Shown here one piece after another: positions 8,820-14,121 of a stretch of 34,298 bases of DNA. The translations under genes and the position numbers were made by a program. How positions within the stretch are numbered: the stretch's first letter is position 1; each line of letters starts with the position of its first letter. Source of the DNA: Novosphingobium sp. (lineage in GTDB: Bacteria; Pseudomonadota; Alphaproteobacteria; Sphingomonadales; Sphingomonadaceae). The notes beneath the pieces are model-generated. The model was not told the origin of the DNA, did not search any database, and saw only the letters and a program-made list of their open reading frames with translations. The stretch spans positions 1 through 34,298 of the forward strand of contig PNJT01000008.1 of the NCBI GenBank assembly GCA_013822005.1. The letters are read 5' to 3'.

Positions 8820-8837
8820 CGACGCCCAAACGCAAAA

Positions 8838-8859
8838 CCCCTCCCGCGATGGGGAGGGG
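8838..8859 (-). terminator. terminator of the parA/SPOR operon
   Basis: CCCCTCCC / GGGAGGGG, an 8-bp stem with a 6-base loop, lies between the convergent ends of the pyrC-like gene and the TPR-SPOR gene. On the minus strand it is followed by TTTTGCGTTT, so it best serves the minus-strand operon. The stem resembles the CCTCCCC/GGGGAGG core of palindromes elsewhere in the window. Confidence 0.65.
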
Positions 8860-8888
8860 CTGCGATCCCGTTATGGGGCTGTTTTCGC

Positions 8889-10334
8889 TTATTTCTTGCG
8901 GGCGTTCGAAGGACCGGCAGGACCCTTGACGACCGGAGCGGCCTTGGGCTTGAACGCCAGCTTGGGGCTGGCCTTGACCTTGGCCTGGGCCATCATCTGG
9001 CCGCCGCGCGCCGGGCTGACCGAATAGGCGAAGCAGACCCCGCCGCGGCTCTTGACCGCCGAGCACAGCCCGCCGGCACCGCGGCCATCGAGGCCGGCTG
9101 CGGCAACGCGCCAGTAGCGCTTGCCCTTCACCGTGGCCTGGCTGATCGCCATCTTGAAATTGCGCAGTTCGGGGTTCTTCTTGGCGTAGTAACCCCAGGC
9201 GCGGCGAGCGCCCTGTTCGCTGGCGAACGAGCCGAGCTGGACGGCGTGGCTGCTGCCTTTACCGGCCACGCGGACGCTGGCCTGGCGCGGACGCAGACCC
9301 GGACGGTGCGCAACCGCCTTGGGCTTGGCCGGAACCACCGCGGCGGCAACGCGAACCGGGCGCTGCTTGGCCAGCGGCGCCGCTTCGGGCGAAACGGCGG
9401 GAAGCGGCTGGACCGTTTCGACATTGGCAAACTGCGAAGAGAAAGCCTCAGGCGTGGCTTCGGCCGGAGCCGCAGCGGGCGCATCGACCGGACGGTACTG
9501 GGCCAGCGCAGCGGCGCCTTCGCCGGTTGCGGGCAGTTCACCGGCAGGAACCGGGTTGCGCGCGGCACCGACTTCGGCGGCCAGCTGAACCTGATCGCCA
9601 TTGGCATTGAGCGCCAGCGCAGTGGGCTGACCCGGATCGGCGCGCATCGGCACCTTGAGCAGGCCCGCAACGCGCAGCTTCGAATCTTCGGGCTTGGCCT
9701 GCGCGGCCCAGCTTGACAGGCGCGCGTCGAGCTGATCGGCGGGAACGTCCTGCGCGGCCATCAGCCGGGCTTCGCGCCAGCGCCCGTCGAGCGCAAAGGC
9801 ATAGGCCAGGTTCTGGCGCAGCTTGGGCGACTTGTCGCCCGAACGCAGCGCATCGGTGAGGATCGCGGTGCCGCGCCCGGTTTCCCCGGCCAGCGCATAG
9901 GCCAGGCCCAGGTCGGACGCGGGAATGGCGTCGCGCCAGTCGTTGAGGATTCCGACGGCTTCGCCGTTGCGGCCCGCACCGACATAGGCGAGCGAGAGCG
10001 AGAGCGCGGTCTTGGTCGAATTGTCACCCAGCTTCATCGCATCGTTGAAAGTGGTGACCGCCGAGGTGAAGCGTCCGGCGCGCAAGTAAGCCTGGCCCAG
10101 CAGCGCACGATAGCTGGCTTCGCGCGGATTGGCCGCAACGATGCCTTCAGCCAGCACGATCGCCTTTTCGGCATCGCCCCTGGCCAGCGCCTTCTGCGCT
10201 TCGGCGGCGGTCTTGTCGGGCGTGTTCTTGGCCACGGCCCCGCTGCTGACCCCCGCGCCTGCGGCCAGCGCGATGGCGATGGCGCCAGCGACCCCGATTG
10301 GCAGGACAGAGCGAGTGATGCGCTTGCTATTCAT
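8889..10334 (-). CDS. TPR and SPOR domain exported protein
   Basis: A 481-residue protein with an N-terminal signal or anchor (SVLPIGVAGAIAIALAAGAG). Tetratricopeptide-type helical repeats follow at about 40-215, for example AQKALARGDAEKAIVLAEGIVAANP. A long Ala/Pro linker leads to a SPOR domain at about 363-435, beginning AVQLGSFASEQGARRAWGYY. The C-terminal tail is basic. SPOR domains bind denuded septal peptidoglycan, so a division-site envelope role is likely. It is the last gene of a minus-strand operon after parA and an RHH gene, 26 bases downstream of the latter, and ends at a terminator. The exact partner is unknown. Confidence 0.85.
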   Translation of the reverse strand: MNSKRITRSVLPIGVAGAIAIALAAGAGVSSGAVAKNTPDKTAAEAQKALARGDAEKAIVLAEGIVAANPREASYRALLGQAYLRAGRFTSAVTTFNDAMKLGDNSTKTALSLSLAYVGAGRNGEAVGILNDWRDAIPASDLGLAYALAGETGRGTAILTDALRSGDKSPKLRQNLAYAFALDGRWREARLMAAQDVPADQLDARLSSWAAQAKPEDSKLRVAGLLKVPMRADPGQPTALALNANGDQVQLAAEVGAARNPVPAGELPATGEGAAALAQYRPVDAPAAAPAEATPEAFSSQFANVETVQPLPAVSPEAAPLAKQRPVRVAAAVVPAKPKAVAHRPGLRPRQASVRVAGKGSSHAVQLGSFASEQGARRAWGYYAKKNPELRNFKMAISQATVKGKRYWRVAAAGLDGRGAGGLCSAVKSRGGVCFAYSVSPARGGQMMAQAKVKASPKLAFKPKAAPVVKGPAGPSNARKK

Positions 10335-10360: not shown

Positions 10361-10798
10361 TCAATTGCGACGCTTGGCCACCTGGGCGGCCAGGTCGGAA
10401 ATATCGGGCAGGCTATCGAGCAGTTGGTCGAGCGCCTGGGTCACCAGTTGCTGGGCGCTGCGACCTTTGACGGTGCAGGCCAGCCGCAGCTTGAGATGGC
10501 GTTCGGCATCGACCCGCAGCGTAAAGGCCGCGCGGCGGCCATCGGCCAGCGCCGAGCGGCGCTCACTGGCGACCTGACGGGCAATCGCGCGTTGCTGGCG
10601 GACCACTTCGGGAACTCGCGCATCGGAATTGATCGGAACCACTTCGGCTTCGGGGGACTCGTGGCCCATGTCGTTCCAGCCGAGGTCTTCATGGCTGACC
10701 ATCACCGCGCTGGCCTGCGAGCGCATCGCCGGCTTGGCTCCGCCCTTGCGCGCCAGCAGCGCGGGATTGAGCGAAGCGAAAGGTTTGGAATCGGCCAT
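10361..10798 (-). CDS. ribbon-helix-helix-like partner of ParA
   Basis: A 145-residue protein not recognised by name. The first about 95 residues look disordered and polar. The C-terminal part (FTLRVDAERHLKLRLACTVKGRSAQQLVTQALDQLL) has the beta-strand plus two-helix pattern of MetJ/Arc/CopG ribbon-helix-helix DNA-binding proteins. It begins 15 bases after the parA stop on the same strand. A flexible tail plus a C-terminal RHH next to a short ParA is the architecture of ParG-type centromere-binding proteins, which use the tail to stimulate ATPase activity. Calling it a ParG analogue is inference; the RHH assignment is fairly strong. Confidence 0.75.
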   Translation of the reverse strand: MADSKPFASLNPALLARKGGAKPAMRSQASAVMVSHEDLGWNDMGHESPEAEVVPINSDARVPEVVRQQRAIARQVASERRSALADGRRAAFTLRVDAERHLKLRLACTVKGRSAQQLVTQALDQLLDSLPDISDLAAQVAKRRN

Positions 10799-10813
10799 GC
10801 CCGCGCGGCTCCC

Positions 10814-11533
10814 TTAAGAACCGGCGACCCGGCGGCCGAAGCCCCCGGCCGGGCGGTGGACGCCCTGGATCGAGGTCACTGCGGTCGGCGCGGCAAACAC
10901 GGTGCGACGGAAGTTCTTTTCCAGCCGGTCCGAAATGTAGTTCCACAGCGCGATGACTTCGGCGGCGCTGCGGCCATTGGGATCGACTTCCATCACCGTG
11001 CGCCCGTCGATCATCGACGCAGCGAAATCGGTACGGTGGTGCAGCGTGATCGGGGCAACGGTGCCGTGCTGCGACAGCGCAACCGCGGCTTCCGAAGTGA
11101 TCTTGGCCTTGGGGGTCGCGGCATTGACCACGAAGATCAGCGGCTTGCCTGCGCGCTCGCACAGATCGACCGTGGCGCCCACGGCGCGCAGATCGTGCGG
11201 GCTGGGACGGGTGGGAACAACAATCAGTTCGGCCACCGCGATCACCGACTGGATCGCCATGGTGATCGCCGGCGGGGTATCGATAACGGCCAGGCGGAAA
11301 CCCTGCTGGCGCAGCACCGCAAGGTCAGCGGCGAGCCGCGCGACGGTGGTCTGCGCAAAAGCGGGGAATTCATCGTCGCGTTCGTTCCACCAATCGGCCA
11401 GCGAGCCCTGGGGGTCGATGTCGATCAGCACGACCGGACCCGCGCCAGCGCGCTGGGCCTGCACGGCCAGGTGCCCGGACAAGGTAGTCTTGCCCGAACC
11501 GCCCTTCTGTGATGCCAATGCCAGTACGCGCAA
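10814..11533 (-). CDS. orphan ParA-family ATPase (short, ParF-like)
   Basis: Deviant-Walker ATPase of the ParA/MinD superfamily, 239 residues. KGGSGKTT with the signature lysine is at residues 10-17, the Walker A' region is DIDPQGSLADWW, and Walker B is FRLAVIDTPP. There is no N-terminal helix-turn-helix, so it resembles type Ib (ParF-like) ATPases. I choose a TTG start at 11533: it gives the family N-terminus (MRVLALASQKGG) and sits 8-9 bases after a strong AGGGGG ribosome-binding site. The track ATG at 11566 would add 11 unlikely residues. No parB or origin genes are near. Neighbours are an RHH protein and SPOR proteins, suggesting positioning of an envelope or DNA cargo. Confidence 0.9.
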   Translation of the reverse strand: MRVLALASQKGGSGKTTLSGHLAVQAQRAGAGPVVLIDIDPQGSLADWWNERDDEFPAFAQTTVARLAADLAVLRQQGFRLAVIDTPPAITMAIQSVIAVAELIVVPTRPSPHDLRAVGATVDLCERAGKPLIFVVNAATPKAKITSEAAVALSQHGTVAPITLHHRTDFAASMIDGRTVMEVDPNGRSAAEVIALWNYISDRLEKNFRRTVFAAPTAVTSIQGVHRPAGGFGRRVAGS

Positions 11534-11781
11534 TGCAATTCCCCCTAACCAGATGCAGGAGCCCATTTGGACTTGCCGTGGGGGATCGCAGATCGTTCCT
11601 AATTTTGAGTTAACGCCCGCGCTGCACTGCGGGGCGGAGGGCGGTCAGCGGGTGCATTAATCCGTTGCTAACGTGCCATTTACTATGTCAGTTAAGCATT
11701 GCAAACCGCTGGCAGGTCTGGCGCGGGCGGTTCCAATACCGCCCGGGCTTAATCCGCTGGCGTGGGGACAGGAATTTTTCA

Positions 11782-12885
11782 ATGGGCCGCAATTATTTGA
11801 TCGCCGCACTGGCGCTGGGTGCCGGAGTGATTCCTTCCGCACCCGCACGTGCCGATACCAGGGCCGGAGTCGATGCCTGGACCAAGGGCGACTATGCCGG
11901 CGCGGTCAAGGAATGGCAGGTGCAAGCCGCCAAGGGCGACGCCGATGCGCTGTTCAACCTGGGCCAGGCCTACAAGCTGGGCAAAGGCGTCAAACAGGAC
12001 CTGATCAAGGCCGAACAGCTATTCGCCCAGGCCGCAGCGATGGGCCATCTGCAGGCGGGTGACAACTACGGGCTGCTGCTGTTCCAGCGCGGCGACCGTC
12101 AGCGCGGCCTGCCCTATATCCGCGCCGCCGCCGATCGCGGCGATCCGCGCGCGCAGTACCTTTTGGGGGTGATGCATTTCAACGGCGAGCTGGTCCCCAA
12201 GGACTGGGTCCGGGCCTATGCGCTGGTCACCCTGGCGCAGCAGCAGGGCCTGCCGCAGGCAGCCGGAGCCATGGCCCAGATGGACCAGCACATCCCCTAT
12301 GGCGAGCGCCAGCAAGGCGTGCAGCTGGCCGCAGAGCTGGCCAGCCAGGCCGACGCCACCCGCGCGCGCCAGCTGGCGGCGGTCGATCTGGGGAGCCAGA
12401 TGCCCAATCCCGTTCCCGCGCCGGTCCGCGGCCCGGTCGTGGCCTCGGCCCAGAGTACGGCCCAGGCCGCGCAAGAGGCGAACCCGGTCTTTACCCGCCC
12501 CAACGACAGCTACGAAGCCACCCGCGCACGCCAGGCAGCGGCCAACCCGGTGCGCGTGCACCAGGGCCCGCCGCCGGGCGTGACCCCGCCCGCACCGCGC
12601 CCGGTTGCCGCTCAGCCGCCGCGCCCGGCTCCTGCGCCTGCGCCAATGCCCGCTGCTGGCGGCTCGTGGCGGATCCAGCTGGGCGCTTTCGGGGTTGCCG
12701 CCAATGCCGATGCGCTGTGGGCCAGGGTCAAGGGCCGTCCAGAAGTGGCCGGGCATCCGCGGCTCAACCTCAAGGCTGGCGCGGTGACCAAGCTGCAGGC
12801 CGGGAACTACAGCCAGGCCGCAGCCCAGGCCGCTTGCGCCCGGCTGAAGGCAGCGGGCTTTACCTGCGTTGCCGTGCCCAATTAA
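11782..12885 (+). CDS. Sel1-repeat and SPOR domain exported protein
   Basis: A 367-residue protein with a signal peptide (LIAALALGAGVIPSAPARA). About three Sel1-like repeats lie at roughly 45-150 (DADALFNLGQAYKLGKGVKQ and DPRAQYLLGVMHFNGELVPK). A Pro/Ala-rich linker leads to a C-terminal SPOR domain starting near 290 (WRIQLGAFGVAANADALWA). The start at 11782 is preceded by an AGGA ribosome-binding site and gives a clean signal peptide; the ORF opens 39 codons earlier without one. It is divergent from the parA operon, which itself ends with another SPOR protein. A role in peptidoglycan or septum binding is inferred. DUF418 follows 3 bases after its stop. Confidence 0.87.
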   Translation: MGRNYLIAALALGAGVIPSAPARADTRAGVDAWTKGDYAGAVKEWQVQAAKGDADALFNLGQAYKLGKGVKQDLIKAEQLFAQAAAMGHLQAGDNYGLLLFQRGDRQRGLPYIRAAADRGDPRAQYLLGVMHFNGELVPKDWVRAYALVTLAQQQGLPQAAGAMAQMDQHIPYGERQQGVQLAAELASQADATRARQLAAVDLGSQMPNPVPAPVRGPVVASAQSTAQAAQEANPVFTRPNDSYEATRARQAAANPVRVHQGPPPGVTPPAPRPVAAQPPRPAPAPAPMPAAGGSWRIQLGAFGVAANADALWARVKGRPEVAGHPRLNLKAGAVTKLQAGNYSQAAAQAACARLKAAGFTCVAVPN

Positions 12886-12888
12886 CGC

Positions 12889-14121
12889 GTGAGCGTTGAC
12901 GCCCCCGACCGGATCCGCACGCTCGACCTGATCCGCGGGGTGGCCGTTCTGGGCATCCTGACGATCAACATCGCCAGTTTCGCCGCGCCGGATTCGGCCG
13001 GCTTTTCGCCCAACCTGCCGCAGCCTGGCAGCACTGCCGACACTTGGTCCTTCGCATTCTCGCTGGTGTTCCTCGAAGGCAAGATGCGGGCGCTGTTCTC
13101 GATCCTGTTCGGAGCCAGCCTGCTGCTGCTTGTCGAGCGCCGCGAAGCGCAAGGCCGGGACGGGCATGGCCTGCAACTGCGTCGGCTGTGGTGGCTGGCG
13201 CTGATCGGCTGGCTGCACTTCGCGCTGCTGTGGGATGGCGACGTGCTGTTCATCTATGCGATCATCGGCTTCGCCCTGTTGTTGATGCACCGCACTCCGC
13301 CGGGGCAATTGCTGGGGATCGCGCTGGCGCTGTTCGCGCTGTGGCAGGCCTGGGGCGTGGTCCGCTGGATGCCCGCCGTCATAGCCGAACAACACGTCAT
13401 CGCCGGGACCGCCAGTCGCGCCGAGCGCAGTGTGTATTCCGCATTCGTTACCGAAGAGCGCCGCCAGGACCGCGCGGACGCCGCCGCCACGCTGTCGCCC
13501 TACAGCGCCGAAGTCGCCGCCCGGCTTGGCGATCGCCCGGCATATCCGCTGTTGCTGCTGATCTACATCTGGGGCGAGACGCTGACCTATGGAATGATCG
13601 GCATGGCGCTGCTCAAAAGCGGGTTCTTCGCCAGTGGCTGGCAGCGCCGCCGGACCGTGCTGCTCGCCGCAGCCGGAACCGCGCTGGGGCTGGCAGCCAC
13701 CACCGCATTCGCAGCCTGGGCGCACCCGCAGGGCTATCCCGAAATGGCGATGCGCATGGCCATCGGCTATGGCCTGGGTTTCGCGCACCTGCTCACCGCG
13801 CTGGGCTATGCCGCGCTGCTGGTGCTTTGCGCCCCGCGCCTGCTGGCCTCGCGGCTGGGCCAGCGGCTGGAAGCCGCGGGGCGAATGGCCTTTTCGAACT
13901 ATCTGGGCACCAGCCTGGCCATGACCGCGCTGTTCAGCGGCTGGGGCCTGGGCCTGTTCGGGCAGTACGGCACCGCCGCCTTGTGGCTGTTCGTCTTCCT
14001 GGGCTGGGCGCTGATGCTGGGCTGGAGCCAGCCCTGGCTGACGCGATACAGGCAGGGCCCGCTCGAATGGCTGTGGCGCAGCCTGACCGAGTGGCAACTG
14101 TTGCCAAATCGCATGCGCTGA
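12889..14121 (+). CDS. DUF418 (YeiB-like) multi-pass membrane protein
   Basis: A 410-residue integral membrane protein of the DUF418/YeiB family. The family opening RIRTLDLIRGVAVLGILTIN is followed by FLEGKMRALFSILFGA. Multiple hydrophobic helices run along the chain, and the C-terminal DUF418 region includes GRMAFSNYLGTSLAMTALF. It starts with GTG 3 bases after the stop of the Sel1-SPOR gene, so the two are probably co-translated. Function is unknown; related proteins are often annotated as transport or acyltransferase-fold-related without proof. Confidence 0.9.
   Translation: MSVDAPDRIRTLDLIRGVAVLGILTINIASFAAPDSAGFSPNLPQPGSTADTWSFAFSLVFLEGKMRALFSILFGASLLLLVERREAQGRDGHGLQLRRLWWLALIGWLHFALLWDGDVLFIYAIIGFALLLMHRTPPGQLLGIALALFALWQAWGVVRWMPAVIAEQHVIAGTASRAERSVYSAFVTEERRQDRADAAATLSPYSAEVAARLGDRPAYPLLLLIYIWGETLTYGMIGMALLKSGFFASGWQRRRTVLLAAAGTALGLAATTAFAAWAHPQGYPEMAMRMAIGYGLGFAHLLTALGYAALLVLCAPRLLASRLGQRLEAAGRMAFSNYLGTSLAMTALFSGWGLGLFGQYGTAALWLFVFLGWALMLGWSQPWLTRYRQGPLEWLWRSLTEWQLLPNRMR

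Follow-up and report, generated by a model that had tools for sequence, protein, structure and literature searches.

ParA-type ATPases are known to act through soluble adaptors on cargoes such as DNA, carboxysomes and chemotaxis arrays, and the coordination of nucleoid position with the division wall in alphaproteobacteria is only partly understood, through MipZ and its relatives. A locus in Novosphingobium sp. raises the question of whether a ParA/adaptor pair of plasmid type has been put to use at the septum or envelope rather than in plasmid partition, as a first-pass annotation of the window (the whole 34,298-nucleotide stretch analysed) had proposed. Open reading frame calls and translation placed three genes on the minus strand, namely parA (10,814–11,533), the adaptor gene (10,361–10,798) and a gene for a TPR-SPOR protein (8,889–10,334), with a gene for a Sel1-repeat SPOR protein (11,782–12,885, plus strand) diverging from parA. 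The 15-base gap reported between the parA stop (10,814) and the adaptor start (10,798) was reproduced. Because a terminator-like stem-loop of 10 pairs (8,836–8,861, minus strand) lies 3′ of the third gene, we read ParA, adaptor and TPR-SPOR as a single operon ending in the TPR-SPOR gene, as annotated; a sigma-70 promoter scan gave no match.

Both SPOR proteins surpassed the PF05036 gathering score of 21, the TPR-SPOR protein (481 residues, minus strand; SPOR domain at 9,027–9,257) with 27.1 bits and the divergent Sel1-SPOR protein (367 residues; SPOR domain at 12,655–12,876) with 48.3 bits, so that the second SPOR protein claimed for the locus is genuine. Their N-termini are hydrophobic: the former carries an export signal, which in several relatives is lipoprotein-like, and the latter a cleavable-type signal peptide. 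SPOR domains bind denuded septal peptidoglycan, and the SPOR proteins of the Sphingomonadales locus have no cytosolic part able to touch ParA. In most loci of the genus the gene after Sel1-SPOR encodes a DUF418 membrane protein (12,889–14,121 in the window), which could belong to the same transcription unit, and an autotransporter gene (PF03797; 14,190–16,478) also adjoins the cluster.

The ATPase itself is a 239-residue protein whose TTG start codon (11,533) is preceded by the ribosome-binding site GGGGGA. It was annotated as a short ParA without a helix-turn-helix, and this description stands: there is no N-terminal HTH, and among PDB entries the protein matches ParF/ParA of TP228 best (E 1e-14 with the single sequence, 3e-21 with a profile). 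Motif analysis and alignment identified a deviant Walker A motif, SQKGGSGKTT, invariant across the aligned ParA set, together with IDTPP, RPSPHD and a conserved C-terminal GFGRR tail. The aspartate of RPSPHD, invariant in 12 ParAs, aligns with ParF PSPLD and is the equivalent of ParF Asp-111, which contacts the nucleotide and is required for ParG binding. Against the NCBIfam model NF041546 (ParA family partition ATPase), the protein scored 161 bits, below the curated cut-off of 180, and its relatives and one plasmid cousin scored 158–167 bits.

The 145-residue partner is a ParG-like adaptor with a conserved N-terminal block, ASLNPALLARKGGAKP (residues 8–23; 10,730–10,777, minus strand), a disordered linker and a C-terminal ribbon-helix-helix (RHH) domain (residues 87–130; 10,409–10,540, minus strand). 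Sequence comparison alone shows little likeness to ParG (Pfam E 0.019, under the cut-off; PDB E 0.085). The AlphaFold2 model reached a pLDDT of about 95 at residues 91–140 against about 52–62 over the first 60 residues, and Foldseek placed ParG (1p94) first among the PDB matches of the model (E 0.089, probability 0.96), Arc and CopG being matched as well; a reading of the adaptor as lacking an RHH domain was thereby ruled out. The annotated disordered N-terminus with C-terminal RHH was thus borne out, as was the ParF-ParG layout, with ParF the best structural match of the ATPase and ParG that of the adaptor fold.

Alignment of 23 adaptor homologues from Sphingomonadales showed the block pattern A.L...LLARKG.A.P to be invariant (A8, L10, L14–G19, A21 and P23), whereas the linker between block and RHH domain is highly variable in length. 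The tail, which includes the invariant R17 and K18, is unlike that of ParG in sequence. Within the RHH domain A91, T93, R95, H101, L104, S114, Q116 and A122 are invariant. Arc-type RHH proteins read bases at strand positions i, i+2 and i+4, precisely where A91, T93 and R95 lie, which makes DNA binding by the adaptor plausible. ParG residues 8–22 dock as a helix beside α5 of ParF (PMC7308502), and in McdB the first 20 residues are required for McdA and also suffice for it (PMC12204374). By analogy with these two pairs, ParA would be contacted by the adaptor block, and the load would be the C-terminal domain.

We then considered whether the locus is an integrated plasmid or mobile element. ParAs 63–65% identical to that of the window do exist on small plasmids, and on three of these (PLAsvaD, pZM22-2 and Deefgea piscis unnamed2) the gene following ParA encodes a protein of 80–114 residues with the same block (e.g. 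SLTSGLVAKKGQA.PA) and an RHH domain, near a replication gene. The recurrence of block and RHH beside plasmid replication genes indicates that the pair and plasmid type Ib systems have a common origin; transfer may have run in either direction. These plasmid pairs differ from the window's in adjoining replication genes, in their shorter partner and in having no SPOR genes. In two complete relatives (G052 and G365), the locus is present as a single copy on the main chromosome of 3.2–3.4 Mb, approximately 1.4 and 0.8 Mb from parB, and a different contig of the window's genome holds its parB along with a parA. Moreover, none of 72,556 plasmid records matched the adaptor, GC content is flat across the whole window, and no rep or integrase gene was detected among the neighbour genes scanned, in line with the annotated absence of parB and plasmid genes nearby. 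Chromosomal position in complete relatives and conservation throughout the order (below) contradict an integrated plasmid, flat GC and the unmatched adaptor count against it as well, and we rejected this explanation as scarcely credible. Separately, a small genome of another family (G198, L165:2372-3279) encodes a 48% identical ParA followed by an 84-residue RHH-like protein, which resembles one on the E. coli plasmid p2018-05-2CC_3 (L278).

The annotation further called for a search for conservation of the gene order across Sphingomonadales, and conservation was found in most of the order (Novosphingobium, Sphingomonas and Sphingobium), where the four-gene cluster is kept even with all other neighbours different. 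The adaptor was present in 26 of the 41 genomes searched. Within the genus the cluster is usually flanked by pyrB-pyrC on one side and DUF418 on the other; the remaining families of the order have no pyrBC close by, and Sel1-SPOR, ParA, RHH and TPR-SPOR are still together. In two genomes of another family (G028 and G040), the Sel1-SPOR gene has moved between the RHH and TPR-SPOR genes and so stays inside the cluster. Of 27 named Sphingomonadales loci whose ParA is at least 78% identical, 24 have ParA-RHH or ParA flanked by both SPOR genes, and two of the remaining three end at contig edges.

Losses were also observed. Two Novosphingobium loci (L211, and L233 of N. organovorum, matching G002) have lost the RHH gene, so that ParA is followed by TPR-SPOR with Sel1-SPOR adjoining; their SPOR genes were examined as candidate fused partners and rejected, being TPR-SPOR genes left after RHH loss. 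In G025 (L279:2930-5919) TPR-SPOR and Sel1-SPOR are divergent and about 500 bases apart, with no ParA-RHH between them. Since such lineages keep the SPOR genes without RHH or ParA-RHH, the ParA-RHH pair is separable from them. The persistence of the SPOR pair in G025 and the restriction of losses to single lineages would suit a neighbourhood without function, in which nothing but inherited synteny keeps the two SPOR genes beside an orphan ParA pair. We regard this as very improbable, given that the cluster persists while its other flanks change, and through rearrangement, and given the partners in other orders described below. Two further loci show losses as well: in G016 (L265:5908-7575) an in-frame deletion leaves the N-terminal portion of ParA fused to TPR-SPOR and takes out the remainder of ParA together with the RHH gene, and in G012 (L281) the RHH gene adjoins the C-terminal part of DUF418, with ParA and Sel1-SPOR missing from the locus and no ParA found in the genome. 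As the G012 assembly is fragmented, the latter arrangement, a deletion or a misassembly, may be an artefact.

To follow the pair beyond the order, we sampled 385 alphaproteobacterial genomes, of which 52 encoded the ParA (E < 1e-50) and 45 gave an adaptor match; in the first 20 loci inspected, the adaptor directly follows ParA in all 20. At nine loci of the class-wide set the gene right after ParA encodes, in place of an RHH protein, a membrane protein with the adaptor block at its N-terminus and a SPOR domain at its C-terminus (hereafter TM-SPOR). Approximately 18 named genomes show this order, including Parvibaculum species, Tepidicaulis marinus and one Kiloniellaceae genome. In these partners the block (L...LLxRKGxAxP) occupies approximately residues 6–22, a single hydrophobic segment starts between residues 51 and 269, lysine and arginine are commoner on its N-terminal side in nine of nine, and the C-terminal SPOR domain scores above the Pfam cut-off. 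The block was found by searching whole genomes with a profile built from the RHH adaptors of the order alone, and every SPOR reading frame that we inspected among its matches adjoins ParA. By comparison, the block is absent from the three further SPOR proteins of the window's genome, one of which is FtsN-like. The presence of the same N-terminal block on a TM-SPOR protein right behind an orthologous ParA makes the link to the envelope much stronger, and it suggests that the RHH half of a plasmid adaptor was swapped for a wall-binding half.

Five genomes (G248, G163, G267, G049 and G183) encode two ParAs each, of which one has an RHH partner and the other a TM-SPOR partner. In the ParA tree, SPOR-type rows are nested among RHH-type rows and the best tree has two changes, which favours two independent origins of the TM-SPOR form; a single origin was not rejected (p-AU 0.20). 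Kordiimonadaceae, Emcibacteraceae and Kiloniellaceae combine an RHH adaptor with a separate SPOR gene downstream. Outside Sphingomonadales and its nearest relatives, SPOR genes are missing from the vicinity of most RHH-type loci, although these SPOR counts are lower bounds because our first SPOR profile missed a Pfam-detected SPOR gene near ParA in G378. At two loci (L107:5712-6233 and L158:4521-5057) the partner has an LLxxKGxA block with an HTH-like or unassigned helical C-terminus and no RHH domain.

Collectively, these findings lead us to propose, with a probability of roughly 0.55, that the locus is a chromosomal positioning module derived from a plasmid-type (Ib) ParA/adaptor pair and linking the nucleoid to the division wall. 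ATP-bound ParA dimers would cover the nucleoid as a gradient, the adaptor block (L...LLARKGxAxP) would dock at the ParA dimer and stimulate ATP hydrolysis, and anything joined to the adaptor would be moved or held along the nucleoid. In the Parvibaculum type, the partner would span the membrane once, with the block in its cytosolic tail and the SPOR domain in the periplasm, where that domain is expected to bind denuded septal peptidoglycan; with both parts on one protein, the load would be the division wall itself. We propose more tentatively, and at somewhat less than even odds, that ParA with a transmembrane SPOR adaptor couples nucleoid to wall in such a way that late division proteins are directly steered or licensed by chromosome position. 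The Sphingomonadales block is instead carried by an RHH dimer predicted to be able to bind DNA, and the two periplasmic SPOR proteins are encoded alongside; during division, the module would connect wall remodelling with a site on the nucleoid by way of a further contact. Because the load here is the RHH domain and the SPOR proteins are distinct, exported proteins, the model has to suppose such an extra contact or a DNA site. The annotation of a septum- or envelope-tied system instead of plasmid partition is accordingly upheld in part: chromosomal location, kept gene order and the TM-SPOR partners agree with it, and lineages in which the SPOR pair has outlasted ParA or RHH show that the parts can be separated.

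We also examined the region upstream of parA. A conserved, CtrA-box-like dyad, TTAACTCAAAATTAGG (11,598–11,613, minus strand; approximately TTAAC-N6-TTAG), matched the CtrA type at 8 or more of 10 positions in 51 of 52 upstream regions, which are related and not independent, as against 12% of Markov shuffles; CtrA may therefore bind here, an inference from the motif. Beside it lies a conserved block (11,584–11,599), which occurs in the genome as a single exact copy plus one site with two mismatches, so that the repeated RHH-binding sites sought in the chromosome on the suggestion of the first-pass annotation did not emerge. This upstream block is retained in two loci without RHH and is thus not simply the operator of the adaptor; as an RHH operator or a centromere it was left unsupported. 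A search of 11,534–11,781 for centromere repeats yielded only short, chance-like ones, though degenerate tetramer boxes may be present.

These data bear on the main rival to the positioning module, a domesticated DNA-partition system in which the RHH protein binds a centromere-like chromosomal site, ParA segregates it and the SPOR genes are merely co-regulated. The ParA-RHH pair is separable from the SPOR genes, and this reading would also account for the kept RHH fold with its DNA-facing residues, for plasmid cousins with the same block beside rep genes, for RHH-type loci outside the order that mostly lack SPOR neighbours, and for a CtrA-like dyad, which suits a cell-cycle operon. However, no repeated site was found, the intergenic region has no more than chance-like repeats, the upstream block outlasts RHH loss, and this rival leaves the swap of RHH for TM-SPOR behind the same ParA unexplained; we consider it unlikely. 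RHH proteins frequently autoregulate, and the promoters of parA and Sel1-SPOR are divergent, which together would fit a regulatory unit in which the adaptor mainly represses the SPOR genes and ParA modulates it. The retention of the upstream block in genomes without RHH, and the conservation of the N-terminal block even on partners without a DNA-binding domain, make this quite improbable.

Compared with known systems, the positioning module that we favour resembles ParF-ParG of TP228 (type Ib) in its short ParA without HTH, with the ParF Asp-111 equivalent kept, and in the small protein encoded directly after it, which has a disordered N-terminus, a C-terminal RHH domain and ParG as its top fold match. 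Unlike that system, the locus is chromosomal, with no rep gene and no recognised centromere repeats; its LLARKGxAxP block is absent from ParG, and its operon includes a SPOR gene. With McdA-McdB, PpfA-TlpT, ParC-ParP and other orphan ParA systems it shares a chromosomal ParA and a cargo-specific partner, and McdB is bound through a short N-terminal segment, as proposed here; in the three named pairs, however, the cargo is a carboxysome or a chemotaxis array and the partner is neither SPOR nor RHH. Like chromosomal parABS and MipZ, it comprises a Walker-type ATPase with a presumed nucleoid-related function, but no ParB is encoded nearby, the genome having its own parB and parA elsewhere. The TM-SPOR partners of relatives recall FtsN, RgsS and DamX, being bitopic with the N-terminus inside, a Pro/Ala-rich periplasmic stretch and a C-terminal SPOR domain. 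They are set apart from FtsN-like proteins by a cytosolic tail with the ParA-partner block and by a gene that follows parA; the NCBIfam Caulobacter FtsN model scored far below its cut-off (39 of 300 bits). A literature search on ParA with SPOR returned no relevant paper among those it covered, and none that describes such a ParA/ParG-like variant.

If the model is correct, an adaptor that crosses the inner membrane and reads septal peptidoglycan would provide a direct physical route from nucleoid to division wall. The occurrence of one block on a plasmid RHH protein, a chromosomal RHH protein and a membrane SPOR protein illustrates adaptor evolution through domain exchange, and at about 16 residues the block offers a simple experimental handle. 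Finally, in three other alphaproteobacterial families a CAAX-protease-like gene (PF02517; L081:6313-7326, L092:4283-5257 and L098:4402-5373), itself giving no functional hint, lies directly after ParA-RHH, and its product may be another membrane partner.
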